A stretch of DNA of 64,000 nucleotides. Source: Ianthella basta. Lineage: Eukaryota; Porifera; Demospongiae; Verongiida; Ianthellidae. The DNA is taken from positions 9,936,256 through 10,000,255 of the forward strand of contig OZ025871.1 of the NCBI GenBank assembly GCA_964019415.1. The letters run 5' to 3'. This document shows, in pieces, positions 30,007 through 56,295 of the stretch (positions are counted from its first letter, which is position 1; each line of letters begins with the position of its first letter). The position numbers and the translations under genes are program-made. The notes below the pieces were generated by a model. That model did not search any database and had not been told where the DNA came from. It saw nothing but the letters and a program-made list of their open reading frames with translations.

Positions 30007-30265
30007 TCAAGCATCATTCCCTTCAGCAGCAATTGCTGTACTTGCTTGATGCTGACAGTCACTCAATGCTGTGTGGTGAACATCAGGAGGTGCCTCCACA
30101 CCTTCTTCATTTGGAGCTAGGACTGCCTTGGTTGCCAAACTGCTTAAAGGCACATAAGTGTACCATTTTGCATGTGATATTAGATCATCAAACTCTTCTT
30201 TCAACTCCTGAAAGGTGGGCCTTGACTTCTTGTCATCACTCCAGCACTTTCCCATTATGGAATAG
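30007..30265 (-). CDS. RTK exon 17: end of kinase domain, C-tail, stop
   Basis: Begins after GTACTGTAG in phase 2, reading [20 protein letters not shown] then [13 protein letters not shown], the last helices of the kinase domain. A tail of about 50 residues with WYTYVPLSS follows to the stop. YVPL is the main candidate docking tyrosine; the tail is otherwise Ala/Ser-rich. Confidence 0.85.
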
Positions 30266-33200
30266 CTACAGTACAAGGGATTGTGTGTTATGCAAACAAA
30301 ATTAACATAATCCTTAAAAGTGCTCGGGGGGGGTGGGCGCATCAAGTAGAAATGAGAGCTTAGGCACACTCTGGGGAAAATCATGTTATGATGCATGGTT
30401 TTGGACAGTACACACCTGTATTGTTCAATGACAAAGATTGATACTGATTATCAATTGATAAGTATTAATTAATCGACTATTAAAGTATACCAAAATGCAT
30501 CAAATAGAAATGAACATGGCACTGATGCAAGTAATGTTGACAAAAATCAGCTTTAAACTACTACACATGCATTCTAGTGCAGTGTAACATGTCTCTAACA
30601 GTAAAAGCATGGTGTTTAAGGTTACTGATCTGGTAGTTTACATATAAAGCTTGTCGAGATGATGACACGCTATTCAGGTACATTATCGGTTTGCTTTTCA
30701 ACATGCATTTCAGTGGACATCCTTTGTACCAGCATGTATAGAAGTGAATGTACATCGATCTATCAAGACCAGAGACACCCCTGTGCACACTACTAGTCTG
30801 CTACAGCTACTAGTTGTGTTTGTAGGAGTACCTGCAGGCATCTAACTTCAAATGTAGAGGACAAGTACACAGGTATATCAAATGAAGGTGAACCAGAAGT
30901 GCATGGCATTTAGTTGGCTAGTTAATTGCTATACGAAAGGAAGTTGCTGTACTATCTCTCCTAAGCACACTTGGAGTGCTACAGTGTATTCTTCATTCAC
31001 TCTGGGACAGAGATTACTCGTTCCCTTTGTACGCACACAAAATTGCCGTCACAAACATGAGTAGTGTGATGATGCGTGGTATTGTCACTCAAGGTCCCCC
31101 CACTGAGAGCTTTCTCGCCCTTAAAAGACTTCAACGAAGTGCGATTCCCTGGTTAAGTGCCAGATCTCAGCTGTAGTGTCATCATTCCTACAAAAATTGG
31201 CAGAAAACTCATGCGAATGCAGCACCTTCGCGGATAGTACGAAAACCGCCGCAAATTTAGAAAAGCATAGCTTTGTCCCAGTCCAGCCTACTGCTAAATT
31301 GTAGGGTTTACCTCTTGGCTTGCTAGCTGGCTATGGCCTTACAATCCACAGTGAAAATCAGCCATTTTCAACGGTGAATTACGAAAGTCATTATAGCATG
31401 CGTAAGCTCTCATTTCTACTTGATGCGCCCACAATTATGACTTGGTGTATAGCTTGCAGATCAGTGATGTAAGGTCTAACAGTGTACCTAATACACCACG
31501 AGCACGCAATAGAGAAGGTTAATACTTGCAGCAACACAGTGCACTTCTTCTATATATGCACATAACAGTACCATTAGCTTACATCTGTTCCGGGCACCCT
31601 TTAGGAGACTCCAGCCTGTAACCCGCCATCACCCTGGAGAGAATAACTGTGTTGCCAAACTCTGTGTATGGAGAATCACCTGCAATATACACATTAGAGA
31701 TGATTCAATGAAGTTATAATGGAGTATGTACAATACCACTTAGAACATGTACAGTGCATTTCACTAAGACTCGAAACGCTTTCAAATTGTTCTATAAGTC
31801 AATGAGTAATATTGGATGTAGCCAATAAAAATTGCCACAAAGTGGTTTCGAGACCAAATCTGGTGTCTAAAGTGGCATAGCTACAGCATACGCAGTGGCC
31901 AGTAATGAATCAAACCAATCTGATTAGCGCATTTATCCACGACGTAATATTGCATTTAGGGATTTTTTGCAATATCTCCATAATTTTTACAATAATACAA
32001 ATCATTACAAGGAGTGAGCTGATGATAAGGACAGTATATACTATACTGGATGCCATTTTAATAGATCAGAATAAATGGCTGTCTACGGCCAATTTCTTTT
32101 GTTGTTATACTAAAACATGCAAACAAAACAGTCTGGCTTATACCTTTAAGCTTTTTCAATTTTGTACGCAGCTGACGAAGGCCTTTGGGCCGAAATGTCC
32201 TGCATTCAGTTGTTGATAAATCTACTACGTATTGCCCATGAACTATTTGCCTACATTGAACAACGTAGCAATGAGCCACTTTTTCTACATAGTTTATACC
32301 GCTTGCAAAACACATCATAGGTGATTTCCTCATCAGCAGATCCCTGAATCTGCACGAAAGGTCAAGGAATGAGCAACTTTTCAACTCACATTGAGGAAGA
32401 AGACTCTATTTTGTCAATGGAAATGCTTGAACAGAGTAGGTTTGTCACATCAGCTCAAGGTGAACTCACAGTGGACAAAATGGTGGCACCATCACTGTTA
32501 AGTGTGTCCCTTGACCATATTCACAAATGCTTTAGGAAATTCAGGGATTAATGTCTGTAATGCTTTTAAAGATGGACACAGTGGCGATAATAGCTGACAA
32601 GGTTATTCAGGGCTATAAATCTCAAAGACAGTTTCGGAAACTGAGTGTAGGCAACGGACGATTTGTTCATTATCTTAATGAATTTGCTTTTTATTGTACC
32701 CCGAAAACACACAACATAGGCAATTTAATGTCTTTGCGGAAAATGCACACATTTGATATTAGGAATAATTATGCTTGATTTTAGAGCAATCATTGAGGTA
32801 CACACAAACTATGTATTGTTGGCATCCCTTATCAATTTAGCGAGTAATAGGAGCTGAAATAAGGTCAACAATCACAACATTACAAAATATTACAATTGCA
32901 GCAGAGTTCAGCTGCTATGCAGAAAACAGGAAAATAAGCTCTAAACAATTACTGTATATGTCCTTATAGAAGCTGGGCTCGAATACAAGCCGGGACTTGA
33001 ATAGAAGCTGAGGGTCCGAGCAGCAAATCTTTAATAGAGGCCAGGTCTCAAGTAGAAGGCGGGTCTGGAATCCACACACTGGCACCCTTCAGCATCCTAG
33101 GTGCACACTTTATGTACAAATCAAATGCTGCGCAATGCCGTAGTGACTTACGGACGTTCCCGCTGTATATAGTAGCAATGTCCAAGTCTGAAAGGAAGTG

Positions 33201-36200: not shown

Positions 36201-39200
36201 AGGTTGCCAAGTATGCCGCCGTGAATAGAGTATCCACAACCATACGTCATTTCAAGACGAAGAATTTTCCCTAATCACACTGAAGGAGAGTACTGTGAGA
36301 GGCTGAAAGAAGCTTTATTGGCAAGAGCTCGGTAGCAGAAAAAGAGATGACAAGCCAATACAGCAACTGCCTCTGAAGCAAGTAGGTCACCCATTGTTAT
36401 TGGGACGAGATGTAGAAAAGAGTAATTCATCAAACTAGGCAATCAGGTCGTATTATCAATAGTTCTATTGTTATCGAAATTATAACTGGGATCCTCCATA
36501 GCACAGACAGCAGCCTGCTGTTAGAAAATGGTGGTCCCATAAACGTAGACAAAGAAGTTGCTCGCCGCTTGTTGTGCAGGATGCACTTGACAATGTGAAA
36601 AGAAGAGGAACAACCAAGGCCAAAGGCAAGCCGCCTGACTTTCAGGCACTGAAATCACAATTCCTAGATAACATCAGGACTGTCGTCATGTTTGAAGGCA
36701 TCCCTGCACGGCTTATTCTGAACTGGTATCACACAGGGATTAACTATGCCCCTTCATCATCATGGACAATGGAGATAATAGAATCCCAGAAGATTCCAAT
36801 CGCAGCCATTTGACGGCAGTTTTTGCCTGCTCACTTGCATGTGATTTTCTACCACTCCAATTGATTGACAGTGGAAAGACCCCAGCTTGTCTTCCGAAAG
36901 CAACATTTATACCAGATTGGCATATTACATACACTCACAATCATTGGGTGAATGAGGCCAGTATGACGGATTATGCACAGGATGTACTTTTTCCCATACC
37001 TGAAAGCAACCAAGAAGCAATTGAGGGTGCCAAGCAACACCCAGGCCATGGCACTATTTGATCAGTTCAGAGGACAACTGACGGATTCGTTTATGAGTTG
37101 CCTGGCTGCAAACAACATCATCATTGTCTAAGTTCCACCAAACTGCACAGGAAACCTGCAACCACTGGACCTCAGCGTTAATAAAGCTGTCAAAGTTTCC
37201 CTCAAACAGAAGTTTCAATCATGGTATGCAGACAATATTCAGAAGCATCTCAAGGATAATCCTAATGAAGACATCAAACCTGTGGACATCCAGCTTGCCA
37301 TCAAGAAGTCACTGAGTGCCAAGTGGATCGTTGCTACAGTTCAGGAAATTGGAAAGCGGAAAGAATTCAACACAAATGGCTTCCATGAAGCAGGCATGAT
37401 AGATGCCGTGAAAGACTTGCTTTAATAATTGTGTAACAGCAATGAGCACAGCAGTAGAGCTCTATATTATGTTTGCATGAGATAATACTATATATATAGA
37501 TTACAAACTAAACATTTACCTAGTGCATTGAGTTAATAATAAAATCGCAGAGAGTAAACATATGTGCATGCTACTATGGAAACACTTCAAATTACTTGTT
37601 CACAAAGCATTTGAATAGATGTGAACACATCTTGGCCTGACAGTATTTCCTGGTGCTGGGGTCTTCTCCAAATGCGAATGATGTAGCAGATGCGATTGCA
37701 AATAAGCCACAGTCTATAGCACCGACTTGATTCTGGCTCTTCATCAGACGAATGTTCAGCATGTTGCAGTGAAAATTGGTTTGTATACTTTTAGCTGTTG
37801 CTTGGTCTACAGATGAATATACGGAATTATATACATGAACAAGTTTTCCCTTGTTCTTCGCAAATGCAACAATTCAATACCTCTTTTGATGTGTAGGAGC
37901 TGCAGGGCACTGATTGTCGGCTGATAATGTGGTTTGTCATTAAGTAGAGTTGATCGCAAACCATTCAGATGTGGAAATTGCCATTTGAGGAGCCTTTGGG
38001 CAAAATTGATGTGGTGGTCTATCAAACACATGCCACTCTCAATAATTATAAGCAGTTGATCATTCATTGTCAGAATGCTATTAAATCTAAGCCAAAGTGC
38101 TGCATCATTAGAGAATGGCTCATCATCATCCTCCATTACCTTCACCACAAAGTGCTTGCCTTTCTGTTCAAGAGCTTCTGGCTTCAGCTGGCCCTCTTGT
38201 AGGCTTTCACTGAAACTCATAGGTTGAACACTACTATCTAATATTCTCCTCTTCCAGTCTCATCTTCTGCAACATCTGCTTCACTGCCTGTTCCTGATTC
38301 TTCGAGCCCAATCTTGTCGTCAGCTGTTTAGGCTATCGGGGTTACCATAGTAATGCAAATGTAAAACCTTTTGTACATTTTGCCTTGAAGAAGCATATAA
38401 TAAAGATTGATGCACTACCTCTGAGCCAATTTCAAATGAGAGACTTTTGCATCATCCTATATAGTATACTACTTCAGCATGTGAAAAGTCTTGGTGAAAC
38501 ACACTATACGTACACATTATTACCTAAAGTGCAGCAAGAGAATTCATTCATTTACATACATATTTCCATAGACTTACCAAGACTGAAGATCTCCCACAAG
38601 CAGATGCCATAAGCCCACCTACATGGCCAATAACAAAAATGGTTAGCTATGCATAGCTAGCTATATCATCAATAAAGATGATAGCAGAGGCAGCATGCTG
38701 ATCATGCTACTGTGGTTGTATTATATAATACTTGAATTAAGACTCACACATCTGATTTTTCACTAAATTCTCCCTTGAGGAATGTTTCTGGTGGCATCCA
38801 GCGAATTGGAAGTCTAGTCTTTCCAGTCGAAACATACTCCAAAGTTTCCTTTGCCAGCCCAAAGTCACTTATCTTTAGCAAATCATTGTCCCCCACTAAG
38901 ATGTTGCGGCAGGCAAGGTCACGATGGATGACTCCTTTAGATAGCAGGTACTCCTAACAATTGGCAAAAACATATGATATGTAAATTAAGATGGTCTATG
39001 TACCATGGTGACACGAATGAAAGATAACATTCGGAACTACACATGGTAAGGAAAGAAGGGAAGGGAAAAATGGCAGTGAACTGGACCAGCACTGGCAACC
39101 TCCAGATCTTTAGCCGACCCTTCAGCAGCCGAGTCACTGGTCTCCGCCAACAGCCACTGATCCATTCCCTCCTTATATACTGATATGGGCGGGCTCTATA

Positions 39201-42200
39201 CAAAGCCTCCTTTGAAACACCCACACCGGGCACTGACTAATCAGTGCCACTCGGAAATGCTAATTAAGATGGTCTATGTACCATGGTGACATGAATGAAA
39301 GATAAGGTTCAGAACATGATAAGGATAAGAAGGGGGGGAGAGAAAATGGCAGTGAACCAGACCAGCACTGGCAACCTCCAGATCTTTAGTCGACTCATTA
39401 GCAGCCGGGTCACTGGTCACCACCAACAGCCACTGATCGATTCCCTCCTTATATACCGATGTGGGTGGGCTCTATCCAGAGCCTCCTTTGAAACTCCCAC
39501 ACCGGGCACTGACTGATCAGTGATCACTAGGAAATGCTAATTAAGATGGTCTATGTACCATGGTGACACGAATGAAAGATAACGTTCAGAACTACACATG
39601 ATGAGGAAAGAACGGGGAAGGGAAAAATGGCAGTGAACCGGACCAGCACTGGCAACCTCCAGATCTTTAGCCGACCCTTTAGCAGCCGGATTAGTCAGTG
39701 CCCGGTGTGGGAGTTTCAAAGGAGGCTCTGGATAGAGCCCACCCACATCGGTATATAAGGAGGGAATTGATCAGTGGCTGTTGGCGATGACCAGTGACCT
39801 GGCTGCTAGAGGGTCAGCTAAAGATTTGGAGGGTGCCGGTGCTGGTCCGGATCACTGCCATTTTTCCCTTCCCCCTTTCTTTCCTTACCATGTCTAGTTC
39901 CAAACGTTATCTTTCATATGATATGTAATGCAAAATGAAAAGTACAACAATGATTGACCTTGAAATGAAGATCCATAATATTATTGCAAACATTATACCT
40001 CACCATTCCACTAGCAATTTGCCAGCCAAAGCAAGTTAAGCTCTTGAGGCACTGATTAATGTCAGATACTTGCGTCTAAATGGTGGGAGTAAGCAGAGGT
40101 TCCATCAGTAGCAGTATATTAGCTGAACATTCTTTGAATGACAATTTCTCATGAGTAAAATGCTATGCTTTGCATGCATGTCATATAAGTGAGACATTGT
40201 CTGCAAATTCTGCATAAGTTGTATTAATTTGAAATAGTTTCCTTTGCCAAGAAAACCATGTTTTCTCAAATTTATATCACCTATTTGTACATGATTTCCT
40301 TGGTATTGATATATGAATTATACAGTGGTTTGCTACCAAACTTTCTTAGAGGCACCACGCTATGCCTTAGAGCGTCACCAGGGGAGAGGTGTTCGAAATC
40401 AAGCTAACCTTGCAGTGTACCAAGAGGGAAATGTTTGGGCGCACTTGTGTACCAAACTCCTCCGACGGCAGCTAGTGGATTGCTACCAAACTTTCCCAAT
40501 CATCTCATCTGTTGCTGCTACACGTCAAGATCACCATCACTTTTGAAAATAGTCCTGTTCTGAGCAGCGCGATGATGGTTCTTCACTAACCCCACATGGC
40601 GGCCATTGTTGTCAGAGGCAGTTGCCAAGTTGCCATAGAGAAGTCGACAGAACTTTGTCCCAATGTTTTCTCATGCAGCTGTGAATGAATTGCCACCAAA
40701 TGTCCTTAGTACTACGACACTGTGCTGTAGGGTATACTGAATAGTTGGCATTCTCCAACAGCCAACAGCTGAAGAAGAAACGGTGAAATAGTATATTAGG
40801 ACATATTTCACCCGCCAACCTCCTTTGCATGGGAACGATTCGACATCCAACTTTCAGAGGCCCAGGGACACTGCACTATTGCAATGAGCATCGCAGGGAT
40901 GGGAAACAGGCAAACGAGACCAAATTTATAGGGCTTGCCAAAGGTGGGGGCCTTGTGAGATAGTATTACATAATTATAGTTGCTAGTGCTAAGATAAGTC
41001 GCCGATCAAAACATTACTACCAATGCAGAAAAGAGACAATTTTAAACTTCAGTATCCCTTACTTCGGCAGTTACCTTCTTTGCTGTGAGGTAGTCCTTCA
41101 GGGTCCCATGGGGAACAAATTGCATGATGAGCATCACTGGGAGGGTGGTGGTGACACAGCCAATCATCTTCAAGACATGAGGGTTTTTGCCATCAGAAAC
41201 TTTCTTCATCACATTTATCTCATCCATAAATAGTTTTCTCTCATTGTCATCACTGCTGAAACCTGAAACGGGATATATGCTAAGTATGATTTTCAGCATG
41301 TGTTTCTGAGCAGGTTTACTCACTTCGAAGCATTTTCACTGCAACAGTCAAGTGTGACTTCCCTTCAAATTCCATTTCTTGCTTGTGTGCATAGATCCTG
41401 GGTGACATGGCCGTCACTGAGAGCTTTCCTTTGAACACAGCTCCATAGTTCCCTTGACCTAACTGGCCTCCAATTTTAATTTCACTTCTGGAAAGCTCCC
41501 AAGCATCTCCATTGGCATAAGTTGAGAAATGCACTGCCTGTGTTCAAATAGCGAATGGCATTGGAAGCTTGTAATAAGATGTGTAGTTTATATATGAATG
41601 TGCTTATATTATGAATTCATCAAATGTAATAATTATGTGAGTGGATTTGAGATAACGACCCACTTTGTTCAGATTATTGATTTTGAGTTTATGACACTGT
41701 GTTAAAGCCAAGTGGTTGAGCTCTCTATTGCCCTCTGTTGCACTTCGATAGCTGCTTCAGTTCCTAAAATATGCTTGCCTAAAATACACAACTCTGCTAG
41801 GTATTTGGCCAGAAAAAGGCGTTAAACATGGACTTCTGGTCACAGCACTAAATTAATGGCGGACAAGTTGGGTTGGCCACAGTGGAAGCAAATATGACAT
41901 GTCCTTGGCACGGGAAGGTCTACACGCTCATCGGGCATGCTGGAGTGCAGTACGTATGTTGACTTCGAACGAAGGCCTGGTTGTCTCAAATAACGTGTGT
42001 AGCTTTAACGCTTTCGTGACATGTTTGCATACGTTGTGCCGGACAGCCACCGTCGTCTTAATTTGCAGTCTTTGTTTGAGCTTCAGAGAACTATAGGATT
42101 CAAACATGGCCACAAGATTGGGACTTTACTATAGATATGAATGATGCCATAATCTGTTTTGCGGTGACATATCATCCGTTTGTCCCATAGCTATTGTTTA

Positions 42201-45200: not shown

Positions 45201-48200
45201 TTGTACTGATGATTCCTCCCCACTTACATTAACACTAGTTTCTGTTGCAGTCCAGTAGTATTCTGGGACTGCATAAATAAAGAGAAAATGCAGATACCAT
45301 GTTGCAATAAACAGTGCTATTACTAGTAGAGAACAAATGAAACAGGCATGCTGACATACTGTGTAACAAATTAAATATTCACCAAACAATTAATGTATGT
45401 CAAAGTGAAAAAAGGAGTAGCTATGCATTAATTATCTTTATGGACTGAATAAACATCTCATTGCCCTCACCATTGAAGACTGTAACCTCTTTCATTTGGG
45501 TGCAAGAAGAGTTGCCGAATTCTTCCTGACTGAGTGTTACCAATCCTAGGACTGTACTGGTTGGCATGTCCACATTTTTACGTCCAATGTCAATGACACA
45601 TTGTTTTACTGTTTGCATTGGTTGAAATTGGCAGCTTGAGTTTAAAGCTGTATATATATATACACACAATAGACAAAACAAATTTGAATTATCTTAACCT
45701 GTACATATGTACTATAATTATAGAATATACTCCGTTGCCGGGGCAACAGCCAGGATATAACTGCAATAAGAAGTCATTTTGGGGGTAAAACTGCAATAAG
45801 AAACTATATACTGCACAGGGCGATTAAATCCTGTTATCACTGCTCAAATATAGAAGTTGTTATTGATGACAACTAAAGCATCAAATCACATCAAAGCACA
45901 TACGTACAAATGCAGCGACTTACAGTCAGCTTCAACCGTGCGTGGCTTTGGGAGAGTCCGCAAAGCACTGAAAAAGAGAATACTTCCCTCCATCATACTG
46001 CGATTAATGCACGCAAGCCAACAAATACAGCGCTCCGTAGCCGAGCTAGATAAACCATGTACGTGACCAGCAAAGTGCACAAATGAGAAACAGCAAGCTC
46101 TTGCACTAATTCATAAGTAAGGGCACTCAAAATCACTGCAGCAGTCGGAACGCACTGTTTCATGGAGAACAGAAAGTCAAGCAGCGAGTGCAAAGAACTC
46201 TCAAAGGCCAAGAACGTCGCAAGAAGCCTCAATCACTTCACTGGTCCCTTAGAGTGTTGCTTCAGTGGCTTTACGTAAGGCAAAACTTCATTGCACTCGC
46301 GAATTCAACAAAACTTGGCAGCTGCTCTTCAGAGGGAGGATATATCACTTATACCACAGCGCTTCAGTGTATATGGACTTTTGATACACTCGCCCTCGTG
46401 CACCTAAAATCCATATACACCTCAGTGCCATGGGCACCGTGGTATAACTAATATATATATAATATTATAATTATTATTAGTTATACTTGAACTGATTATC
46501 ACAGTTACTTACACACAAGTGTTTCACTGTTTTTGAATGCAAGGTTCAGAGTAATAGAAGCTGCATCACAAGCAGGACTGCTCCGGGTTATGTTCACAAT
46601 CACATCTAAAAAGCTTGCAACTGTCACTTCAACATCCTCTTCACCAAAGCAGAACTCTTCTTGTACATCTAATTAATGTAAAGTCATGCAAGTGATGCAC
46701 ATATGCCAGACATTTCAATGCATGTACACACCAATACAATTTGAGTGTTTTTGAATGAGGGTTTGTGCGTTCAACGGCAATGTGCTCAAACACAAGGCTG
46801 TATACAAAGACATATACAGCTTCAATGTTAATTATTGAAATTGTCCCATATATGTAATGCGCGAATATGTGTTAACAAATAATGGAATTATAATGGAACA
46901 TCACTATACCTTCATCTTTAATTGTGATAGAAGCAAAATGGCTTGAACCTAGTCTGAATCCTTCTCCAGGAACTGCAATAGATGCTGTGAATGTCTCGTC
47001 ACACTCTGGCACATCATCATTCACCAGTGGAATATTCACACTTGCAGCAACTGATCCACTTGGGAAATTCACCAAATAAATGCCACATTGTATGTCATCC
47101 ACACCTATAAGGACATATGCAGTCTAACATTAATAAATGTCATCACCAACTAAATTGAAGATCTGTCAAGCCATGCTTTTTATGTAACTATAGATTAACC
47201 GATTGGGAGATGGTTTAGCATTAATTGTATATAATAGTGATTCAAGTCTTCCATAGAGTAATGATCATTAGGCCAAGTAAATATACATATATATACTTGT
47301 TTATTGTCGGGCAGTGATCATCAGATAGGGGAGGGAGGTCTAATTGTAATTATATTTTTATATTGGTCAGTGCACGTCATGTGTAACCAGCTATGAACAT
47401 TACAGGCGGTTGGTATACGGAGGGGATGGTTGCTTGATTACAGTACCATCTATGGTGTGGCCAGTTAAGGGGTAACACGTGGTTAAGATGAGCTGTGGCA
47501 CTACATGTGGTCAGGGCCACCTGTGGTGCCAATTCAGAATTCTCACTAATAACAGGTACACATATAGGAGAACTTTATCCATTTATGGTTAGGGCTATAC
47601 AAACTATTCAGGCGGCTGGTATACAGAGGGGACAGACAGGCCTAGGAATGATATATAAACAAGTAATTATATTTGGCATTATGCATAATTATATGTAGTT
47701 CAGAGTATTAGCTTACAATGAGCAGTGTTGCTAACAATATTCATAGGGATGATGAATTCCTCATCACTGGCAGTACTTGCAATGACAGTCAAAGTGAGAT
47801 TTCCTTCTTCCTCCACTTTAACGTATTCTTCTTTCAACGAAACAGTAATCTCATTGTGAATGTAAACATTTGCATCTTGAAAATTTCCCAAGCTGATTAC
47901 AACATCATCTGATATGTGGGAAGGAGGTGACAGATGCACAATAAAGTGCTCTGTGCCTTCATTTGAGTTCAGGTCTTCAATGATGGGGATTTCTACCACT
48001 GCAGATGTCTGATTGGCTGGGAAGAGCCCAACATAGGAACCTCCTTTAAAGTCAAATCCAGCTGCAAAAGGGACACATGCAGGAGCAGCAATTGGCACCA
48101 TCATACACCAAAGATACAACATGACAGAAGTACAGTTGTGTATCCATCCTTCATGACTTCTGCACCGAAACACATACTCACCTGATGCATTTCCACTGCC

Positions 48201-51200
48201 ATACACAGTATCCACATGTACTGTATAGTTTGAATGTGGAATGGCTCTACTGGAGTTGAGAGTCAGACTGACACTTCCAAGCGACTCATATACAATGTAG
48301 TCTGACTTACTGAAGGTGCACAGTACTACAGCTGTGTCATGTATGACAACAGTAGTTGATATGTTTGCGTCAATGGACTCTGACTGTACCTCGGCATAAA
48401 AGTTCTCCTCGTCTTCATCCAACAGGTCAAGATGAATTAGAATCTCCATAGTTGCAGAATATGATCCTTTGTGAAACACTGCTGTGATGCTTTCATTTCC
48501 AGAAAGGGTGGCATAGTCACTTCCAACTATTATACACAATGTCACACATAATTATGCAGTTGATGGTGATCATCAAATGTGAGTGGATTTGAGAAAGGAC
48601 CAATAGCAATAGCAATAGCTAGGGCCAACACAATCGCGCAGGTGATAGTCAACACTATCGAATATCACCTGCATGATTGTTTTGGCTATCGCACAATTCG
48701 TGTCTGTGTCATAGTCTCTACCTTCTTGCCAAGTTTGAACACTGTACGCCTTCTCTGAAGCTCAAACAAATTAGGGCCGAAGAGTTATACAGTGGCCATT
48801 GTGCACCACATATACGGACTTGCTATGGAAGCGTATTGTGGATGTTCACAACAAAATATACAAAAAGAGTGGCAGTCCCAGGAAAATTGACCTGATATTC
48901 ATCAGGAAAGGGCTGGCGCAGAGCTGTGCTCACCTAAAGTAATGACTGTGTGTAGGGAGGCTATGCCAGTGCCGAGATGAATACTGTGCTTCAGCGATTG
49001 CCATACTAACTTGTCTGCCATTGTAATGGTTATCCGGATAGTATGCGGATCTTGTGTTGTAAATGGTACGTATCTCGGGAACAAGAGCAGCTATCGAAGT
49101 GAAACCAACTGCAACAAATAGCCCAATCTCTCTGCTATTATGCAAAATGTTTAACTCAAATTGGTAAAAATGTGTGAAGTGGGTCATTTTCTCTAATCCA
49201 CTCACAAATGTTGTCATGTGTTTCGATATGAATATGTAGCACATACAAGCATAGTATATACACATTCACTTAGTCGCCATTGCATAGCTAACATAAGATT
49301 CTTTGTAAAGAACACGTACTGAACTTGTCACTTTTGTCAGCCATCTAATTCCAGTGTCACCTACAGTTTCCCACCTGGCTGTAAAGATATATAAACTTGT
49401 CTACATACCAAATTGGTTATATATACTCTTTATTTCATCCACTGTTACCTTATGGCTGCTGCTATGTATTAAGATGTGAAACATGCTTTTAAGATAGTGC
49501 ACTGTTGTCCTGAGCAGTGCATACTTGGGTAGACCTCTGGCTTATGGATTATGACTGTACAGATTTGGAATGGAAGTAGCATTCTTGCATAGTATAACTC
49601 ATGAAGTTATCTAGTCAACGTACAGGTATGATTTCATATGACGTATAAAAGGCATCATAATGGTGGGTGCCAGGCCCTCGTAAGGGTTTCTGATTGATAT
49701 TTGCAACACAGCCACCCATGAGGTATTGAACAGATGCTGTAGTTGCTATTTTGGCATCAGAATTCCATGGGACCTACAATACTAAGAAGCTTAAAGTAGA
49801 GGGGCTATCCAGCACAGGTCCTAAAATAATACTGAAAAGCTTAGAACTAGTGGGACTATCTAGCACAGGCATGCACAATACCTGCACAACAAAATATGAT
49901 GCCCTGAGAGGTTACTATGTTCTCATTATGAAATATGCCTTTATATAAAGAAATAACACATTGTGAATCAATAAGATAACATTGTGTAATCAAAGTATGA
50001 ATATATGCTTACAATCTGTAAAATCAATACAGGCCTTCCCTTGCTGTCAAATCTTAAACTAGAGCTTACAATTAGAGCATGAGCTTAGCTTAGTTTTCTG
50101 TACAGATTGCATTAAATTTTTCAAGGTTTATTATAATAATGTCAATTGATTACTCTCTTAAACTGTATTTGCTTTAACCATAGATTATAACTTTTAAGGT
50201 CACATGCTTGTCAAAACAAATATTTGAGTTAATAACTCGTTAGGCGCTGGGGCGCCCCAGAACTTGAACTACTTGCTAGCAATTTTTCCATGTATGTATA
50301 GTAGTTCAGATAGTTGGGTGTGCAGCATTGCTGATGGACTGAAAGATACTCCTAGATGCAATAGACTGTTGGGTATGCAAGGGTTTCAAGTCTCCAGAGC
50401 AGCCAGTTAGCTATCCAATGAAAGTACCACTCCTAAACTGTCAAAATGCTTTACTGACTGCTTTTTATATACGTACCATTCTAAATGAGAATGTACATGC
50501 CACTTTGTGCCTGGAGGAGTATGCTGGCTACAAAGGCTACCTTATAGCTAAGTGGTAATGCCATGATTTTCTAGTCTCCGTCATAATTTTTCAATGGGCT
50601 GTTTGACCTCTGTTACATTTGGGGCTGTACCGCGGAGGAGAATTTTTAGGTAAGCTTCCACTACAATGCTATTATTATACCTGTTCTAGAAACACTTTTG
50701 CTTCTTTGGATACATGGAAAATACGAAGAAAGATGATTTTGAGCCTAGCTAACAGAGAGCGCTGAACGCAGTCATTTTACAAAGTCTGTTCGTGAGAAAT
50801 GGAGCTGTATCTTGCAGAGAGTCTCTTCTTAGGCTTTTCATTTGTATCATTCCAATAATAGCACATATTCATGATCACATTTCGTTCAATTAAAGACGTC
50901 AAAAAGCAATTAGAGCTGATTTTAAGCTTTGTAAAGAATGACGTGAGGGCTGCCATTTGCAATGACAGTAATCTATATATAATTTATTATAATACAAACA
51001 TGAAGACATACTAATACTTAAATATGAAAACAATATGGGATGTGGCTATAAATACTATAATACGTATACGTCATTGTGCTTGTGTTAATGGCAGTTCAGT
51101 TATAATACTGTTTTGTTCTATCTGGAGCACAAATTAACCCTTCAGTCGTGAATGACGAGTAAACTGGACATAAATTATGTAGTAACATAAATGCGAATGA

Positions 51201-54200
51201 TGAGTTTACTCGTCACAAAGTTGGCGCAGTTTAAAAACTGATTTCTTTTGGCTACAATCTCCAGCTGACTATAAGTTTCTCAGAGGACCTGCAGCAGTGG
51301 TTGGACGTTACTTAGCTTGCTTCTCCTTCTTCCTTGGTGCCCAATGTCCGCAATCAACCCCAAATGTTTGCGCATATTTGCACACTTTCTCCCCAATACC
51401 AATTTCTGTTAGTCTACGCAACCGAGGCAATTCGAAGAAGAGTCTGTAGACTCTTGTGCTAATTGCAACCACTGTAGAGTCAACAGAAGCAATCTTTAGG
51501 CTTTACGGCATGCACACATTGCTATTCTCACCATCTTCCTTCTTTTCATGTTCTTGTTTATACACACTTGTGTACGCGGTCTTCAACCGGCCAACGAGCA
51601 TCCCTTTGTCTTCTAGGACCCAGCGCCGAACTATCCACACATCATCTTCATCCTCTCTGACAGAGAAAACGTCACAAAGTGCGCACACGCAGCTCAAGTG
51701 ATTTAGTCCTGTGAGCCGCCATTTTAACTTCGCGTACCGAGAGCATGGAGCGAAGTTTAAAGTTTGAGCCTATGGTTTAAATCAAGATTTCTAGTTGTTG
51801 CTGCCTTCCATACACAGTGAAGCCAGTCTAAGATAGTCAACAGTACAATATGGAACAAAACAGTATTACAGTCATTGAGCAGGTGCACACAATGATGTAA
51901 GCGAACACAGTGGAGGGAGTGATGATTATTAATTAACCCTCTAGGCATGAATGCCAAATTTACACATGATAACAATATTTAATTATATACATATAAGCAT
52001 GAATGAAGAGTTTACTCGTCGTAGAAATTGGCACAGCTGTTTTCTATTGCTACAAACATTAGCTAGCTATTGCTACAAGCATTAGCTAGACTCGACACAA
52101 AGAAGGCAACTGGCTAGGACAGTATCAGTGCATGGATGCTAAAGACCACTGCTCCCTCCATTTGTGATAGTTTGTGTAACCTCTTCAACTCTAGTTTGAG
52201 GGTATCTCAGATCTGAATGGAAAGCAGCTAAGATCATTCCTATCCTCAAGACAGCTAAACCAAGAACTTTAGAGGACTATCGCCCTATTTCCATCCTCCC
52301 AGTTGTCGCGAAGGTTTTTGAATCGTTGTTCACATGCGAGTCTCCCGGTACCTTGTCAAGTATGACATCCTCCATGAAGCTCAATCTGGCTTTAGGCCAA
52401 ATCACTGTACACACTGTGACAGGATGTCCTTTTGAAAACCGTGGAAGACTGGAGAGACTGCCTGGAAAAGAATGAAATAGTTGGATCTGCCTTCATTGAT
52501 CTTAGCAAGGCATTTGACTCTGTCAATCATAACTTACTGTTGCTGAAGCTTTCTCTGTATATACGGTTTTCGAGGTGAAACTTTGGAGTTGTTCAGAAAC
52601 TATCTTAGTGGCAGAAGGCAGTGTGTGGTTCATGGAGATGCAATCTCTGAGTGGCCAAATATACATGTGGGTGTCCCACAAGGGTCTATTTTAGGACCAT
52701 TACATTTCAGCATATTTGTGAATGACCTGCCAGCAGCTCTGCTGAAAAGCACAGTGATGTTGTATGCTGATGACACTACTGTAAATGTCTCTGACAAAAG
52801 TGCCAAAGTGGTGGAAGAGGTGCTCACAGATGACCTTACAAGACTTACTACATGGCTTGGTATGAATGGCCTGACAATGAATGTGCACAAAACTCAATTT
52901 ATGAGTCTGTCTAGGAAGTGCCGAGAAAAGGAGGCCAATGGCCTGCGAGTATTGGTGGAACAGGAAGCATTGAAGAAGTTTGATGACGTCAAGTATCTAG
53001 GAGTGATCGTAGACAGCTAGGCAACTGAATTGGAGTGAACACGTGGACAGAGTGAAGAGGAAATGCCTTTCTGTACTGGGTCTTGTCTGTAAAGTCAAGC
53101 AAGCTCTACCAGCTGAATTGAGAAAGCACCTGTACCAGGCCTTAGTCCAGCCACATCTTGATTACTGTGCAGCCGTGTGGGCAGAATGTAGTAAGCAGGA
53201 TGCCACCAAGCTAGACAGGATACAGAAGAAAGGCATGAGGATGATTCTCGATGAAAGCTGGGACTGCCCCTCTGCGTCAATGAGATCCCGACTAGGGTGG
53301 ATGACAGTAGGCAACAGAATGAAAACGATGCGAGCGGCAGTCACAAAGAGATATTTATCGGGTGACTGTCCAAGGTACATGGTTAAGCTGTTCAGAATGC
53401 ATAAGGACCTAGGTCTGCGTAGTGCTAGAAGGGAGAATGATATATACTTGCCCAGCATTAGATCAAATTGGAAGGCTAACTCATTTCGATCGTTACAAGG
53501 CAGGCACTGACTGGAATTGACTACCTATGCCAATCAGAACTGCTAGCGCTAATGCCTTTAAGGACATGATTAAGCAATACTATATGGACTAATTTAGCAT
53601 TTACTTTATTTGTCTGAAATTAACCTAATTTATCTATTTGTTTATTAATTAATTTTGCAATTCACAAACAGAACTCTGTTGCCTGATTTGCCAATTCAAT
53701 TCCATTTATTCAAGTTTATTGATCAGCTTTAATTTAATTTATTTGCGTATATGACATTGTGCATGTTCATTATTAATTACCTTCATTTCACAAATCTGTT
53801 GCTTGCGCAAGTATGCGTGTCAATCATAGTTTATCACCTGCTTGTCTATCTTTCTTGTTTTGTCATTCTGTCATCATGTTAATACAATCGTGCTTGTACT
53901 GTTGGGTCCCCCATTGATACCAGCCCATGGTTGAAGGGGTCACCTTTAATAATAACAATAAACAACAATAAATCAAGCAGACTGCCTTCTTCAGAGTACC
54001 TACAGCAGTGGTTAGACCTTGCTTTTCCTTTCTCCATGTAGCTAGCGCCTGACACCTGCAATCAACCGTTAAAGTTTGTGTGTATTCGCTCACTTTCTCC
54101 ATAATTCCAATCTTTACTAGTCCATGGAACAGAGGCAACTGCTATAGTGCATTGTGGCAAAACCTTCCACTCGGCATACATAACATTTCATAGATGCTAA

Positions 54201-56295
54201 TGTGCAAAATTCAAAAGTGACAGAGTTAGAAAGTGTTTTGGGGGTCAGTTTGACAGAAGACATGACAATGTACAATAAATTTTAAATTGATATTGCCATG
54301 ACAACACAGTAAAATACAATCTGCTCACTAATTAAGTGCATTATTCATTACGGCAAGGTGTTAATTGACCTATTTCTCCTTAATGCTAAGTCACATCAAA
54401 TAAATTCAGGCATGTAGGCATTCGTATGACCTGCTTCTATGTACTTTTCATTGGAAGATTTTGCTTGCAAAGTGCTGTACTGTAAGTAGGATAAATTCAA
54501 ACTTTTAAAAATTGGCATTTTTGCAATTTTAGCTAGACCTTTTATAAAGAAAATGTGTACAGTGCATGATCCATGTTTGACATTGCTGTTAGCATACTAA
54601 GACCTGTCTGTATATAGAGAGGTTAGCTGTAACTATGTACACAAAGCAAGTTATAGGCAAAATAATTAAGTAGGTTGTACAAGATGTCTGAATAATTCAT
54701 TAGTTAGCTACATATGCTGTATAATGCATTTTATGGATTAACCTGTAATGTTAAACATTGTTTTCTCATTCTCTCACTCTTCTGTGGGACTTGTATCCCT
54801 TTACGGGAGCATTGGCATCAAATGCAGTATGACCTTCTTCATACGCATTCAGGTAATCTTGGCACTTCTCGAAGTATTTGTGATTTGATCCAGTGACACG
54901 TATTCCAGGGCAGGTGTTACCATCATACACAAGCTTACAAAGGAATAGTCACAGTGCTGTTAAGAGTATATCTTGGCTTTCCCCCAGACTCTCTCTATTG
55001 GGTTCAGTTCAGAGTGGAACTTCAATAAAAATTCGCATTTTTGGTTGAAACGGGTCAGTACATAGGCAACCTTGTTCTTTTTGTATTACAGAAACAGCAA
55101 TCAAAGGTACAGATTGCACATATGAATGTGCTATGGAGGATCGAACGTGTAAATGGATAGGACAGAGAAAAATTAAGGAATATGGACATTAGGAAGAGGT
55201 TTAATCAAGAAGGTGCTATGTATCTGGTGAAGAGAAATCAGGAGAGCTGAAAGGGCAGACTAGAAGAATTGAGCATTGAGAAGACAACAAAGAAAGTGCT
55301 TGTTGGAGGAATGAAGGGGAAGAGGCTGAGAGGAAGACCACACTTAAGATGGATTGCCAACTTTCAATAACCTTACAATACATATTTTTATGCTAACTCA
55401 CTGTTTATACTGTATTAGTACGAGGGATGATCTCCACAAGACAGCAGAAGAAGGGGCCCAGGGGGAGGGGGGGGGGGGGGCTGGAGGGGGTGGAGCCCCC
55501 CCACCTTGCATGGTGGAGGGGCAGAACCCCCCATATGGAAACTAACACTCCTTTTTAAAAATGACTTAATATAGGCACAGCTAAATGTATTACTATTTTG
55601 AATACTATTTGGTATTAATGAAGTGAGGGCTTCTCAGCTGGCTCAGGCATCAGAGAGGGGGTTGGTTCTCCAATACCAGCTTCACAACAGGGTTGAAAAC
55701 CTTGCCGACGTTTTTTAAGAATCAATCCTCCTGTTAATCTTCCTCCTTGTCCGGTGGCCATTTTAGGTTCGAATAATTAATTAGCAACAGCTACAGCTGC
55801 AACAGTCCATAGCTATTACTTCAATTTGAGACCCCTCCCCCTACTTTTTGCAGACGTTTCTGCCACCTCAGCTCCAATACTGAAGATAAATCCACTTTTG
55901 CAACTGTGATTGATTGATTGACTGATACAGAAATGCCACATAGATGGCTGTCTTAGACAGGCTCCACTGAATGTTTTGTTGGTTTCCTTAGTGGTTTGCA
56001 GCATTGTCAATAATATCAACTACATGCAAGTAAGTAAGCTACTTCAGAAGTTTCAATTCAATTCTAGGCAGTAAACACTATTGCCTTGCTAGAAATAATA
56101 ATAATAATGTTTTGTGCACGTATGCTCATAGAAATGCAAACTTACAAAAATGCAACTTACATGTAGCTGAGCCATCTTTCAGTTGTACCAGAAGCGAATA
56201 CTCTGCTTCAGCTGGAAAGGATGCCATTAGTTCAAGTGTAAGTGACTGTTGCACCTCGTATGTCACGTAATTGGCAGCAGAGAATTGGTAAGTGG
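30007..56295 (-). CDS. Receptor tyrosine kinase with Calx-beta ectodomain (5' end unresolved)
   Basis: Seventeen exons (listed separately) read from 56295 down to 30007. All exon phases match across 16 introns and the joined frame is 990 codons plus a stop. Order: three Calx-beta modules (about 330 residues), a Cys-rich and N-glycosylation-rich region (about 240), one transmembrane helix, a short juxtamembrane part, a tyrosine kinase domain of about 280 residues and a tail of about 50. Catalytic elements are all present: glycine loop [15 protein letters not shown] lysine, alpha-C glutamate in [24 protein letters not shown] and CW...RPTF. Calx-beta domains bind calcium or mediate adhesion, and occur in the sponge aggregation factor. 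The protein should sit in the plasma membrane and signal by tyrosine phosphorylation. No start codon or signal peptide was found, so more N-terminal exons are expected. Confidence 0.85.
30266..31582 (-). other. RTK intron 16 with a 1.1 kb TIR insertion
   Basis: Almost the whole intron is the element at 30333-31432; its flanks match the orphan copy at 16433-16680. Confidence 0.7.
30333..31432. mobile_element. 1.1 kb element with 30-base terminal inverted repeats
   Basis: Left end GTGGGCGCATCAAGTAGAAA followed by TGAGAGCTTA; right end is its exact complement (TAAGCTCTCATTTCTACTTG, then ATGCGCCCAC). The equivalent intron in the duplicated fragment at 16433-16680 lacks it, so it inserted after that duplication or was lost there. 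The interior has no transposase frame, so it is non-autonomous. Confidence 0.75.
31583..31679 (-). CDS. RTK exon 16: kinase C-lobe (PY motif)
   Basis: A 97-base exon, phase 1 to phase 2. It reads [20 protein letters not shown] then [12 protein letters not shown], the C-lobe segment (G-x-x-PY, then G-x-R-x-x-x-P-x-x-C) found in all RTKs. It lies 6.9 kb downstream of the previous exon. Confidence 0.88.
32172..32199 (+). ncRNA. Hammerhead-like core motif, incomplete
   Basis: CTGACGA, then a GGCC-TTTG-GGCC hairpin, then GAAA, as in helix II and the core of a hammerhead. No pairing partner for helix III or helix I is evident close by. The 3' part (CCGAAATGTCCTGCATT) recurs on the minus strand at about 60745-60770, so it belongs to a dispersed repeat. 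Confidence 0.3.
32968..33072. repeat. Short minisatellite, about 20-base unit
   Basis: Five degenerate units of the type AATAGAAGCTGGGTCTCG. A further single unit lies at about 33415-33450. Confidence 0.6.
33506..34097. mobile_element. TIR repeat family, copy A
   Basis: About 590 bases, similar over most of its length to 41637-42240 and, inverted, to 48579-49205. The ends are terminal inverted repeats related to GTGAGTGGATTTGAGAAA and GACCCACTT. Internal landmarks are GAGCTCTCTATT and TCGATAGCTGCTTCAGTTCC. No transposase is encoded. Confidence 0.75.
35570..35664. mobile_element. Partial foldback element (related to 23517-23696)
   Basis: Carries ACCGTATACGCTTTAACTTT and GGGGTTAAACTGTCCC, matching one arm of the element at 23517-23696; the second arm is strongly decayed. 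Confidence 0.5.
36020..37425 (+). pseudogene. DDE transposase pseudogene (pogo-like, DDE_1 type)
   Basis: Segments in different frames line up as one protein. An N-terminal DNA-binding part at 36020-36270 ([20 protein letters not shown]) is followed by [18 protein letters not shown]. The catalytic core from 36574 includes [12 protein letters not shown], then [43 protein letters not shown] and [10 protein letters not shown]. The C-terminus is [20 protein letters not shown], ending at TAA. The first catalytic Asp of NWDQTGI is Tyr here; the second (LFDQF) and third (LQPLD) are kept. Several frameshifts and stops make it inactive. It lies antisense within an RTK intron; the TIRs were not located. 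Confidence 0.75.
37592..38220 (-). pseudogene. Ulp1-like (C48-type) protease pseudogene, transposon-associated
   Basis: On the minus strand the first 110 codons read through [30 protein letters not shown] and [10 protein letters not shown]. After a small deletion another frame continues with [20 protein letters not shown], then [20 protein letters not shown] and [13 protein letters not shown] to a stop. The Gln and Cys of the Q-x(5)-C active site are present (NQVGAIDC). The catalytic His, normally in an H-W just before IVA, falls at the deletion and is missing. Such Ulp1-like proteases are common cargo of invertebrate DNA transposons; a host SUMO protease is less likely. Confidence 0.6.
38578..38618 (-). 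CDS. RTK exon 15: kinase alpha-F segment
   Basis: A 41-base exon (phase 2 to 1) reading [13 protein letters not shown] after the SDV of the previous exon. [17 protein letters not shown] is the classic DVW-S/A-x-G-x-x-LWE-x-x-S-x-G helix F region. Confidence 0.85.
38748..38953 (-). CDS. RTK exon 14: catalytic and activation loops
   Basis: A 206-base exon, phase 0 to phase 2. It encodes [34 protein letters not shown], then [20 protein letters not shown] and SDV. It has the catalytic Asp and Asn (HRDLACRN), the magnesium-binding DFG and WMPPE in place of the APE motif. The activation segment has a single tyrosine (LEY), unlike the paired tyrosines of insulin-receptor-type kinases. Cys in HRDLACRN replaces the more common Ala. 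Confidence 0.93.
38984..39917. mobile_element. Composite foldback: three direct units and one inverted unit
   Basis: A unit of about 277 bases beginning AATTAAGATGGTCTATGTAC occurs at 38984-39261, 39262-39538 and, truncated, at 39539-39690. It is followed by an inverted full-length copy to about 39917. Each unit has CAACCTCCAGATCTTTAGxCG and a TATATAAGGAGGGAA block on the opposite strand. The whole is flanked by a 14-base direct repeat CATATGATATGTAA (38971-38984 and 39915-39928), which looks like a target-site duplication. It lies in the intron between RTK exons 13 and 14. Confidence 0.8.
40004..40075 (-). CDS. RTK exon 13: alpha-E start
   Basis: A 72-base exon, phase 0 to 0, with TTTAG and GTGAGG borders. 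It encodes [20 protein letters not shown] followed by ASGM, leading directly into [14 protein letters not shown]. This is the alpha-E helix ([12 protein letters not shown]) typical of RTKs. Confidence 0.88.
40076..41062 (-). other. RTK intron 12
   Basis: About 1 kb. Repeats of TGCTACCAAACTTTC-type units at 40325, 40480 and (diverged) 40690 suggest a degraded inverted or tandem repeat. No gene is seen. Confidence 0.5.
41063..41262 (-). CDS. RTK exon 12: alpha-C helix and hinge
   Basis: A 200-base exon, phase 1 to 0. Contains [20 protein letters not shown] (alpha-C Glu for the Lys-Glu salt bridge), [20 protein letters not shown] and [11 protein letters not shown]. Counted back from the glycine, the gatekeeper is Met and the hinge is Gln-Phe. 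Confidence 0.92.
41324..41537 (-). CDS. RTK exon 11: juxtamembrane, glycine loop, catalytic lysine
   Basis: A 214-base exon, phase 0 to 1. Encodes [20 protein letters not shown] followed by AVFKG, then a loop of about 20 residues and [10 protein letters not shown] with the ATP-binding Lys. [11 protein letters not shown] fits G-x-G-x-x-G-x-V. The insertion between beta-2 and beta-3 ([20 protein letters not shown]) is fairly long. Confidence 0.92.
41637..42240. mobile_element. TIR repeat family, copy B
   Basis: 604 bases starting GTGAGTGGATTTGAGATAAC and ending TTTCTCAAATCTGCTCAC. The ends are inverted repeats. It is homologous to copies A and C and lies in the RTK intron between the microexon and exon 11. 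Confidence 0.8.
42241..43510 (-). other. RTK intron 10, right part
   Basis: Bases about 42985-43050 (ACATGTGTAAACATGGTAAC, then GTGTGATAAAAC) recur at 60239-60306, marking another dispersed repeat. No gene is seen. Confidence 0.5.
43511..43529 (-). CDS. RTK exon 10: 19-nt microexon
   Basis: GGAACATTCTGTCAGAGTT lies between ATATGTAG and GTGAGT and converts phase 2 (end of the transmembrane exon) to phase 0 (start of exon 11), reading REHSVRV. Without it, the transmembrane exon and exon 11 do not join in frame. Support is splice sites and phase only. Confidence 0.55.
43654..43810 (-). CDS. RTK exon 9: transmembrane helix
   Basis: A 157-base exon, phase 1 to 2. Encodes a short stalk ([15 protein letters not shown]), the helix [20 protein letters not shown] plus AVCIWF, and a basic stop-transfer RTKKSRRQK. 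This orients the Calx-beta part outside and the kinase inside. Confidence 0.88.
43928..44125 (-). CDS. RTK exon 8: Cys-rich membrane-proximal ectodomain
   Basis: A 198-base exon, phase 1 to 1. It has [20 protein letters not shown] with paired Cys and several N-x-S/T sites, then [18 protein letters not shown]. No named domain is recognised. Confidence 0.8.
44126..45109 (-). other. RTK intron 7
   Basis: About 1 kb of AT-rich sequence; no gene or mobile element was recognised. The frame at 44394-44654 has no support. Confidence 0.5.
45110..45268 (-). CDS. RTK exon 7: Cys-rich ectodomain
   Basis: A 159-base exon, phase 1 to 1. Reads [20 protein letters not shown], later [16 protein letters not shown]. 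The CKGECPC cluster should be disulphide bonded. Symmetrical phase 1 exon. Confidence 0.8.
45471..45647 (-). CDS. RTK exon 6: ectodomain
   Basis: A 177-base exon, phase 1 to 1, after TATACAG and before GTGAGG. Reads [20 protein letters not shown] and later [18 protein letters not shown]. Domain type not recognised; beta-rich and secreted in character. Confidence 0.8.
45648..46512 (-). other. RTK intron 5 with a small foldback element
   Basis: It contains the inverted repeat at 46349-46447. The rest shows short open frames without domains. Confidence 0.5.
46349..46447. mobile_element. Small foldback element
   Basis: TTATACCACAGCGCTTCAGT at the left and ATACACCTCAGTGCC...GTGGTATAA at the right are imperfect inverted repeats around ATACACTCGCCCTCGTGCAC. 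About 100 bases, non-coding. Confidence 0.65.
46513..46668 (-). CDS. RTK exon 5: ectodomain
   Basis: A 156-base exon, phase 1 to 1. Joined to exon 4 it reads [20 protein letters not shown], ending the third Calx-beta module and entering a Cys-containing region ([20 protein letters not shown]). Confidence 0.82.
46910..47104 (-). CDS. RTK exon 4: second half of Calx-beta module 3
   Basis: A 195-base exon, phase 1 to 1. [20 protein letters not shown], then [20 protein letters not shown] and FASITIKDE follow the Calx-beta consensus F-x-x-G-x-x-x-x-x-x-x-I-P-I-x-x-D, E-x-x-E-x-F and I-x-D-x-D. Asp and Glu residues at the calcium-binding positions are largely kept. Confidence 0.88.
47105..47716 (-). 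other. RTK intron 3
   Basis: About 0.6 kb, AT-rich, with a GGCGGTTGGTATACxGAGGGG unit twice (47405 and 47610). No gene is seen. Confidence 0.5.
47717..48061 (-). CDS. RTK exon 3: end of Calx-beta 2, start of Calx-beta 3
   Basis: A 345-base exon, phase 1 to 1. [20 protein letters not shown], then [20 protein letters not shown] is the second half of module 2. [20 protein letters not shown] then starts module 3. The exon borders cut each module at the same point as in exon 2, the expected result of phase-1 exon duplication. Confidence 0.9.
48182..48526 (-). CDS. RTK exon 2: end of Calx-beta 1, start of Calx-beta 2
   Basis: A 345-base exon (same length as exon 3), phase 1 to 1. [40 protein letters not shown] and VVIHD complete module 1. 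[20 protein letters not shown] opens module 2. The GSAT|FGSDY junction with exon 1 restores the Calx-beta core motif GTAxxGxDY. Confidence 0.9.
48579..49205. mobile_element. TIR repeat family, copy C (inverted)
   Basis: 627 bases beginning GTGAGTGGATTTGAGAAAGG and ending TTCTCTAATCCACTCAC, in opposite orientation to copies A and B. Flanked by AAAT on both sides, a possible 4-base target duplication. It has diverged further and carries its own internal inverted segment at about 48620-48680 (CGCAGGTGATAGT and ATATCACCTGC). Confidence 0.75.
49784..49870. repeat. Tandem duplication, about 55-base unit
   Basis: Two units of the type AAGCTTAAAGTAGAGGGGCT then ATCCAGCACAGG lie side by side. No coding meaning is seen. 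Confidence 0.6.
51120..51450. repeat. Dispersed repeat, complete copy
   Basis: GAATGACGAGTAAACTGGAC, GATGAGTTTACTCGTC and then CAGCAGTGGTTGGACGTTAC to GCAACCGAGGCAATTC. The same order is found split at 51930-52110 and 53990-54145 around the LINE. Confidence 0.65.
51930..52110. repeat. Dispersed repeat, left half interrupted by a LINE
   Basis: Matches the first half of 51120-51450 (GAATGAAGAGTTTACTCGTC, TTGGCACAGCTG). Its right half continues at 53990-54145 after the LINE. Confidence 0.6.
52190..53585 (+). pseudogene. Non-LTR retrotransposon reverse transcriptase, broken
   Basis: Order of motifs: [68 protein letters not shown], then from 52583 [42 protein letters not shown] and [10 protein letters not shown]. 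After a frameshift near 53018 follow [15 protein letters not shown] and [20 protein letters not shown]. This is a jockey/CR1-like LINE reverse transcriptase with an intact YADD active site. At least three frameshifts (near 52425, 52565 and 53018) and no upstream endonuclease make it a 5'-truncated dead copy. It ends in a TAATAATAACAATAAACAAC tail at 53950-53975. Confidence 0.85.
53990..54145. repeat. Dispersed repeat, right half
   Basis: TACAGCAGTGGTTAGACCTT to ATGGAACAGAGGCAACTGC matches 51285-51435. It is the continuation of 51930-52110 on the other side of the LINE. Confidence 0.6.
55080..55368 (+). pseudogene. LINE C-terminal remnant
   Basis: The end reads [20 protein letters not shown] then AN, matching the G-K-R-x-x-G-R-P-x-x-R-W tail seen downstream of many non-LTR reverse transcriptases. 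Upstream there are stops and only weak similarity. Confidence 0.5.
55455..55545 (+). repeat. G-rich tract with a run of about 14 G
   Basis: GGGGGAGGGGGGGGGGGGGG follows GGGGCCCA and is followed by GGAGGGGGTGGAGCCCCCCC. Several runs of four or more G within 40 bases could form a G-quadruplex; the GGGGG...CCCCC pairing could alternatively form a hairpin. Such a run is also prone to sequencing error. Confidence 0.7.
56161..56295 (-). CDS. RTK exon 1 (first placed): first half of Calx-beta module 1
   Basis: A 135-base exon, phase 1 to 1, between TTAATGCAG and GTAAGT. Reads [20 protein letters not shown], then [15 protein letters not shown], the beginning of a Calx-beta fold. It starts in phase 1, so an earlier exon must exist. 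Confidence 0.8.

Follow-up and report, generated by a model that had tools for sequence, protein, structure and literature searches.

A putative Calx-beta receptor tyrosine kinase in the sponge Ianthella basta and the multi-copy family to which it belongs

Receptor tyrosine kinases in general act through ligand-driven clustering, trans-phosphorylation and SH2 and PTB docking. Calx-beta modules are familiar from two other settings. In the sponge aggregation factor (the MAFp3/MAFp4 family, of which the wreath domain is a feature) they are repeated and extracellular, in a protein that is secreted and has no transmembrane kinase; in the sodium-calcium exchangers they are cytosolic and form part of a transporter. 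The predicted protein described here is like metazoan receptor tyrosine kinases such as FGFR, the insulin receptor, RET and EGFR in having a complete kinase with catalytic motifs, a single helix and extracellular modules, but differs from them in its Calx-beta ectodomain and in a membrane-proximal region without recognised relatives. With the aggregation factor it has the repeated outer Calx-beta modules in common, whereas the transmembrane helix and kinase that follow in the same frame set it apart; the Pfam scans of the single frames, the joined protein and the membrane-proximal exons gave no match named for the wreath domain. Its likeness to the sodium-calcium exchangers is one of Calx-beta sequence, and its own modules are predicted to lie outside, joined to a kinase.

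Tyrosine kinases on unusual receptor parts have likewise been described in sponges and choanoflagellates as GPCR-tyrosine kinases (PMC12716839, in excerpt), although there the receptor part has seven helices and here it is a single helix with Calx-beta modules. Expansions of receptor tyrosine kinases in sponges are known in kind, as for the Eph receptors (PMC6485061, in excerpt). Among the matches listed from the open-licence PMC literature, in the excerpts available, we found none that describes a receptor tyrosine kinase with Calx-beta modules.

Gene model and predicted protein

The window, by which we mean the whole stretch of 64,000 nucleotides that was analysed, is C4:9936256-10000255 of an assembly of 209 Mb in 96 contigs. 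It contains a minus-strand gene model of 17 exons, running from 56295 down to 30007, whose joined frame has 1000 codons and a sole, terminal stop. Exon ends were set by a three-way alignment of exons and flanks from the window gene, its tandem neighbour (C4:10014000-10043999) and a copy on another contig (C11:6138000-6166999); because intron sequences differ, with the sharpest contrast given by the C11 copy, the exons are recognisable in the alignment. The features are given below, with coordinates in the window, strand, and the evidence for each.

56161..56295, minus strand: E1, first half of Calx-beta module 1, an internal exon; phase 1 in and out, acceptor TGCAG and donor T/GTAAGT at the three loci
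52547..53017, plus strand: reverse-transcriptase fragment in intron 1, antisense to the receptor gene (PF00078, E 5.5e-17)
48182..48526, minus strand: E2, second half of Calx-beta 1 and first half of Calx-beta 2 (alignment, Pfam match of the joined protein)
47717..48061, minus strand: E3, second half of Calx-beta 2 and first half of Calx-beta 3 (alignment, Pfam, genome matches)
46910..47104, minus strand: E4, second half of Calx-beta 3 (alignment, single-frame Pfam scan)
46513..46668, minus strand: E5, membrane-proximal cysteine-bearing region, part 1 (alignment; no Pfam or PDB relative)
45471..45647, minus strand: E6, membrane-proximal region, part 2 (alignment, genome matches)
45110..45268, minus strand: E7, membrane-proximal region, part 3 (alignment, genome matches)
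43928..44125, minus strand: E8, membrane-proximal region, part 4 (alignment, genome matches)
43654..43810, minus strand: E9, stalk, transmembrane helix and following basic residues (alignment, hydropathy 2.69)
43122..43170, minus strand: E10, juxtamembrane segment with two tyrosines, HYYESV (alignment, motif reading)
41324..41537, minus strand: E11, kinase N-lobe with glycine loop GQGNYG and VAVK (alignment, Pfam, motif reading)
41063..41262, minus strand: E12, kinase helix C and hinge, with a choice of two in-phase donors separated by 12 nt (alignment, Pfam)
40004..40075, minus strand: E13, kinase between hinge and catalytic loop (alignment)
38748..38953, minus strand: E14, kinase catalytic loop (11 residues), activation segment and WMPPE (alignment, Pfam, genome matches)
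38578..38618, minus strand: E15, kinase WAYG segment (alignment)
31583..31679, minus strand: E16, kinase C-lobe (alignment)
30007..30265, minus strand: E17, end of the kinase (CW), C-terminal tail with YTYVPL, and stop codon (alignment, Pfam, motif reading)

All 16 introns of the model are GT-AG, the 1000 codons are free of internal stops and frameshifts, and the junctions from E1 to E9 are phase 1 throughout (8 of 8). Introns cut the Calx-beta modules internally, and E1 to E4 therefore each begin or end mid-module. Taken singly, the minus-strand open frames near 48, 47, 41, 38 and 30 kb give Calx-beta or tyrosine-kinase matches; when ten window frames were scanned one at a time against Pfam, three scored over the curated cut-off, three gave weak matches and four had no match. 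A sequence-only reading of this DNA had proposed 17 exons in one minus-strand frame of 990 codons; the ends, the strand, the exon number and the architecture stand, and the length has to be revised to 1000 codons. Its observation that the exon phases match throughout also holds, since the joined frame is intact and the phases are identical in the tandem and C11 paralogues. We attach no chance probability to the agreement at one locus because the boundaries were chosen with the phases known; the argument is instead the recurrence of the structure in four loci.

Two of the introns, 1 and 15, are swollen in the window gene, to 7.6 and 6.9 kb respectively. Intron 1 measures only 2.1 kb in the tandem paralogue, a difference for which the reverse-transcriptase fragment is partly responsible. 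Within intron 15 are two overlapping minus-strand open frames of 150 and 93 aa (37595-38259) without a Pfam match, which are possibly the remnant of a mobile element.

The 5′ end of the gene and a signal peptide are absent from the model because exon 1 is internal. E1 starts at an acceptor common to three loci, has no in-frame ATG ahead of the Calx-beta module, and contains a single methionine that sits within the module. Over the 21 kb ahead of E1 in the window gene we recognised neither an upstream exon nor a conserved upstream Calx exon, and a search for a signal-peptide exon upstream of E1 in the window gene, the tandem copy and the C11 copy gave no candidate common to these loci. That 21 kb held two weak candidates, and the 11 kb before the tandem copy none; a further two in the C11 stretch are parts of Calx-type repeats. 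The C11 paralogue has extra Calx-beta half-exons ahead of E1, of which the window gene shows none, and its upstream block of about 3.4 kb is tandemly duplicated (6145.9-6149.3 and 6149.3-6152 kb).

The pairing of Calx-beta modules with a tyrosine kinase that was first read from the letters is recovered when the joined protein is searched against the two Pfam profiles. It matches PF07714 at profile positions 2-257 of 258 (E 2.3e-81, 273 bits), that is, as a complete tyrosine kinase, and PF03160 in three stretches (E 3e-25, 89 bits, against a curated cut-off of 27). There is a single strong hydrophobic helix at about residues 590-608 (mean Kyte-Doolittle 2.69), followed by basic residues; the only other stretch above 1.6 reaches 1.63 at residue 742 and lies within the kinase. 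Using patterns that we take to mark a catalytic kinase (the glycine loop, the VAVK lysine, the helix-C glutamate, HRD and DFG), we find GQGNYG, VAVK, the helix-C Glu, HRDLACRN and DFG in the window kinase, with an activation segment ending in WMPPE. The motifs GxGNYG and VAVK, the helix-C Glu, an 11-residue catalytic stretch, HRD and DFG are present in all three copies, namely the window gene and its two paralogues, and the tail tyrosine before Pro-Leu occurs as YVPL in the window gene and as YMPL and YVMPL in the other two.

Among solved structures the kinase finds, within the best 60 of 2500 matches, an ancestral Src-Abl construct, FGFR, the insulin receptor, ABL, RET and EGFR, with an EGFR entry coming top through two copies in one chain. 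For the Calx part, every solved structure that matches at up to E 1 is a sodium-calcium exchanger (10 of 10, best E 5.7e-6). E5-E8 encode 230 aa that bear cysteines and have no meaningful Pfam match and no PDB relative up to E 1. We asked whether E5-E6 and E7-E8 are degenerate Calx-beta modules: Pfam gave no Calx-beta in them, comparison of profiles did not tie them to the Calx modules, and the resemblance between the two pairs is weak at most (probability 1.7%).

A proposed mode of signalling and its ligand

We consider it probable that the locus encodes a single-pass receptor tyrosine kinase with Calx-beta modules outside, in which clustering by an adhesion-type ligand would produce a signal. 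On the evidence of the sequence, the outer Calx exons and the transmembrane and kinase exons are most likely one gene. Its product would present three Calx-beta beta-sandwich modules and the cysteine-bearing membrane-proximal region outside the cell, and would carry inside it a tyrosine-bearing juxtamembrane segment, then the tyrosine kinase, expected to be active, and finally a short tail that also contains a tyrosine. The Calx-beta modules would bind a cell-surface ligand, most likely a matrix protein or a protein of a neighbouring cell that itself bears Calx-beta repeats or calcium-linked glycans of the aggregation-factor class. A multivalent ligand of this sort would cluster the receptor and lead to trans-phosphorylation, and SH2 or PTB adaptors could then dock at the tyrosines of the juxtamembrane segment (HYYESV) and the tail (YTYVPL).

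It is also possible, though less likely, that we are dealing with an ordinary lineage-specific expansion of receptor tyrosine kinases that sense soluble or microbial ligands and have no tie to adhesion or self-recognition. Lineage-specific expansion has been reported for the sponge Eph receptors (PMC6485061, in excerpt), and the repertoire of Halichondria includes many tyrosine-kinase receptors, with Calx-beta appearing among the domains in a figure legend of the same source (PMC8242945, in excerpt). A table in a study of sponges and microbial patterns contains two Calx-beta genes with negative values of -4.9 and -8.1 (PMC6208332, in excerpt). The main argument for adhesion over such a role is the common Calx-beta module, and we retain the adhesion-type receptor as the preferred explanation.

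Copies, constraint and exon linkage

Both paralogues used in the alignment have 17 exons in the identical order and with identical phases, and neither has an internal stop; the tandem copy encodes 1002 aa and the C11 copy 1029 aa, the exon 9 acceptor being the least certain boundary of the C11 model. A fourth copy (C4:9922300-9926600) was modelled by a script that searched, in the phase expected, for the closest AG or GT; phase was therefore not free in this test. Across E1-E8 of this copy 15 of the 16 boundaries lie exactly as predicted and one acceptor is 3 nt off, giving 572 codons without a stop. Between two tandem copies, at C4:10016839-10017504, there is an orphan E1-like exon with about the first half of E2, which looks like a broken copy. 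The window itself holds an isolated E17-like last kinase exon on the minus strand (16333-16431, 82% identical to that of the window gene), probably a 3′ remnant of another copy, and no further exon of the receptor family was found elsewhere in the window at E 1e-3. An open frame matching ribosomal protein L14 (PF00238, E 6.7e-17) lies nearby on the plus strand at 18207-18617.

Comparison of the copies (Nei-Gojobori dN/dS with codon bootstrap) shows strong constraint on the kinase and less on the ectodomain. The kinase has dN/dS values of 0.14-0.15 in three pairs and the ectodomain 0.38-0.53 in six, with non-overlapping bootstrap ranges in the three pairs having both. Within the ectodomain the Calx exons give 0.32-0.40 and E5-E8 0.53-0.79, and the upper bootstrap bound for E5-E8 exceeds 1 in four of the six pairs. 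The ectodomain is thus under looser constraint, possibly with local positive selection; since its point estimates are below 1, the contrast is accounted for equally well by relaxed constraint and by selection for diversity. At synonymous sites the window gene and copy B are 0.61 apart over the Calx exons and 0.23 apart over E5-E8, an inequality that suggests exchange between copies. Repeated duplication together with such exchange would keep the signalling module while the outer part varies.

The window gene could conceivably be a decaying pseudogene copy, with inflated introns and neither promoter nor first exon, as might be read from the swollen introns 1 and 15, the reverse-transcriptase fragment within the former, and the failure to find a first exon upstream of E1. 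We regard this as very unlikely, given 1000 codons without a stop or frameshift and GT-AG borders at all 16 introns. Decay of the window copy is also argued against by its kinase, which is constrained on the window branch (15 non-synonymous and 26 synonymous changes); the corresponding counts are 26 and 19 in E1-E4, and 16 and 6 in E5-E8.

The window gene, which lies in a tandem array, is one member of a large multi-copy receptor family. At 75% identity or better the genome contains at least 68 copies of its catalytic exon E14, a lower bound because 150 of 772 candidates were scored, and the next listed identity is 64% or less. Eleven of the 68 lie at C4 9.73-10.05 Mb, all on the minus strand. 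E3 has 71 genome matches, the best 32 of which (E 3e-14 or better) are separated from the others by a gap to 5e-10. All but one of these 32 (31) are followed on the same strand, at 3.8-9.1 kb, by an E14 copy; with the strands flipped the count is 0 of 32, and an E14 copy lies within 10 kb upstream in 2 of 32. The 39 weaker matches are to other Calx-beta exons, and no family kinase lies within 10 kb downstream of any of them, so that over all E3 matches 31 of 71 have one and 40 do not. Calx-beta exons therefore sit mostly away from the kinases of the receptor family, and this counts against the explanation that we favour. The E5-E8 exons are more specific to the family kinases than E3 is: 91 of their 93 matches, on three contigs, have a same-strand family kinase exon within 10 kb downstream.

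Seen from the kinase side, 36 of the 68 close E14 copies (themselves a minimum) have E1/E2, E3 or E5-E8 within 15 kb upstream and 32 have none of them; close kinases must therefore also follow outer parts that these queries do not recognise, which likewise weighs against the favoured explanation. At C13 3.2-4.3 Mb all 13 kinase exons (80-87% identical) are without a recognisable Calx-type ectodomain exon upstream, and here a like kinase is apparently predicted to follow another outer part.

That the locus is instead two adjacent genes duplicated as a unit, one for a Calx-beta protein (secreted or membrane-bound) and the next for a transmembrane kinase of its own, is very improbable: linkage alone would be expected from tandem duplication of a pair, and in the window and tandem copies a methionine precedes the helix of E9, but the C11 copy lacks a methionine at that place, E8 ends at three loci in a donor without a stop and is met by an E9 acceptor of matching phase, and the kinase recurs downstream of E5-E8 in almost every match on the three contigs.

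Calx-beta arrays and a possible role in adhesion and self-recognition

At least 150 Calx-beta matches exceed the curated cut-off in the genome as a whole (150 of 969 candidates scored), most of them on C11, C6 and C23. No match on C4 is among those listed, so the window's own modules rank below them. On the minus strand of C11, at about 4.8-5.7 Mb, there are Calx-beta arrays (for example at 4.82-4.86 and 5.56-5.72 Mb) near which we saw by eye no family kinase exon, although they share their region of the contig with Calx-beta receptor kinases; these kinase-less arrays could be candidate secreted, aggregation-factor-like genes. A group on C6 (3129864-3135966) consists of three close cathepsin L-like open frames without the catalytic cysteine. 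By eye, two of them have serine at that place, and for one the printed alignment shows it as well; silicateins have serine at the place of the catalytic cysteine. The best PDB match of the C6 cathepsin L-like gene is a digestive cathepsin L, with weaker matches to a cathepsin-silicatein chimera (E 5.7e-34) and silicatein alpha (E 7.9e-29). The many Calx-beta matches and these cysteine-less genes fit a siliceous sponge, which they make a likely source, the cathepsin evidence being supportive and not decisive.

We infer a possible role in allorecognition, or a link to the aggregation factor, from the common module and from the contrast in rates between kinase and ectodomain. A more specific proposal is that these receptor kinases and the Calx-beta arrays without a kinase on C11 (4.7-6.4 Mb) together make up a receptor-ligand complex for self/non-self recognition, matching via the common module, diversified by tandem exchange and signalling through the one conserved kinase; we think this unlikely. 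The aggregation factor is described as an adhesion proteoglycan of demosponges, and the claim of an exclusive role for it is disputed (PMC6820919, in excerpt). A grafting transcriptome from Amphimedon gave no significant enrichment for aggregation-factor-mediated adhesion in the part of the report available (PMC5450542), which counts against the recognition reading. A 2025 review describes the mechanisms of invertebrate allorecognition as "a complete mystery" (PMC12065747, in excerpt).

Because their predicted outer part is made of Calx-beta modules, as in sponge adhesion proteins, the receptors of this family are good candidates for the conversion of cell or matrix contact to an intracellular signal. 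The family offers a clear case of one kinase module kept constant across tandem arrays in which the outer parts diverge, and it provides concrete genes with which to test how sponge cells may convert adhesion or self-contact into a signal.
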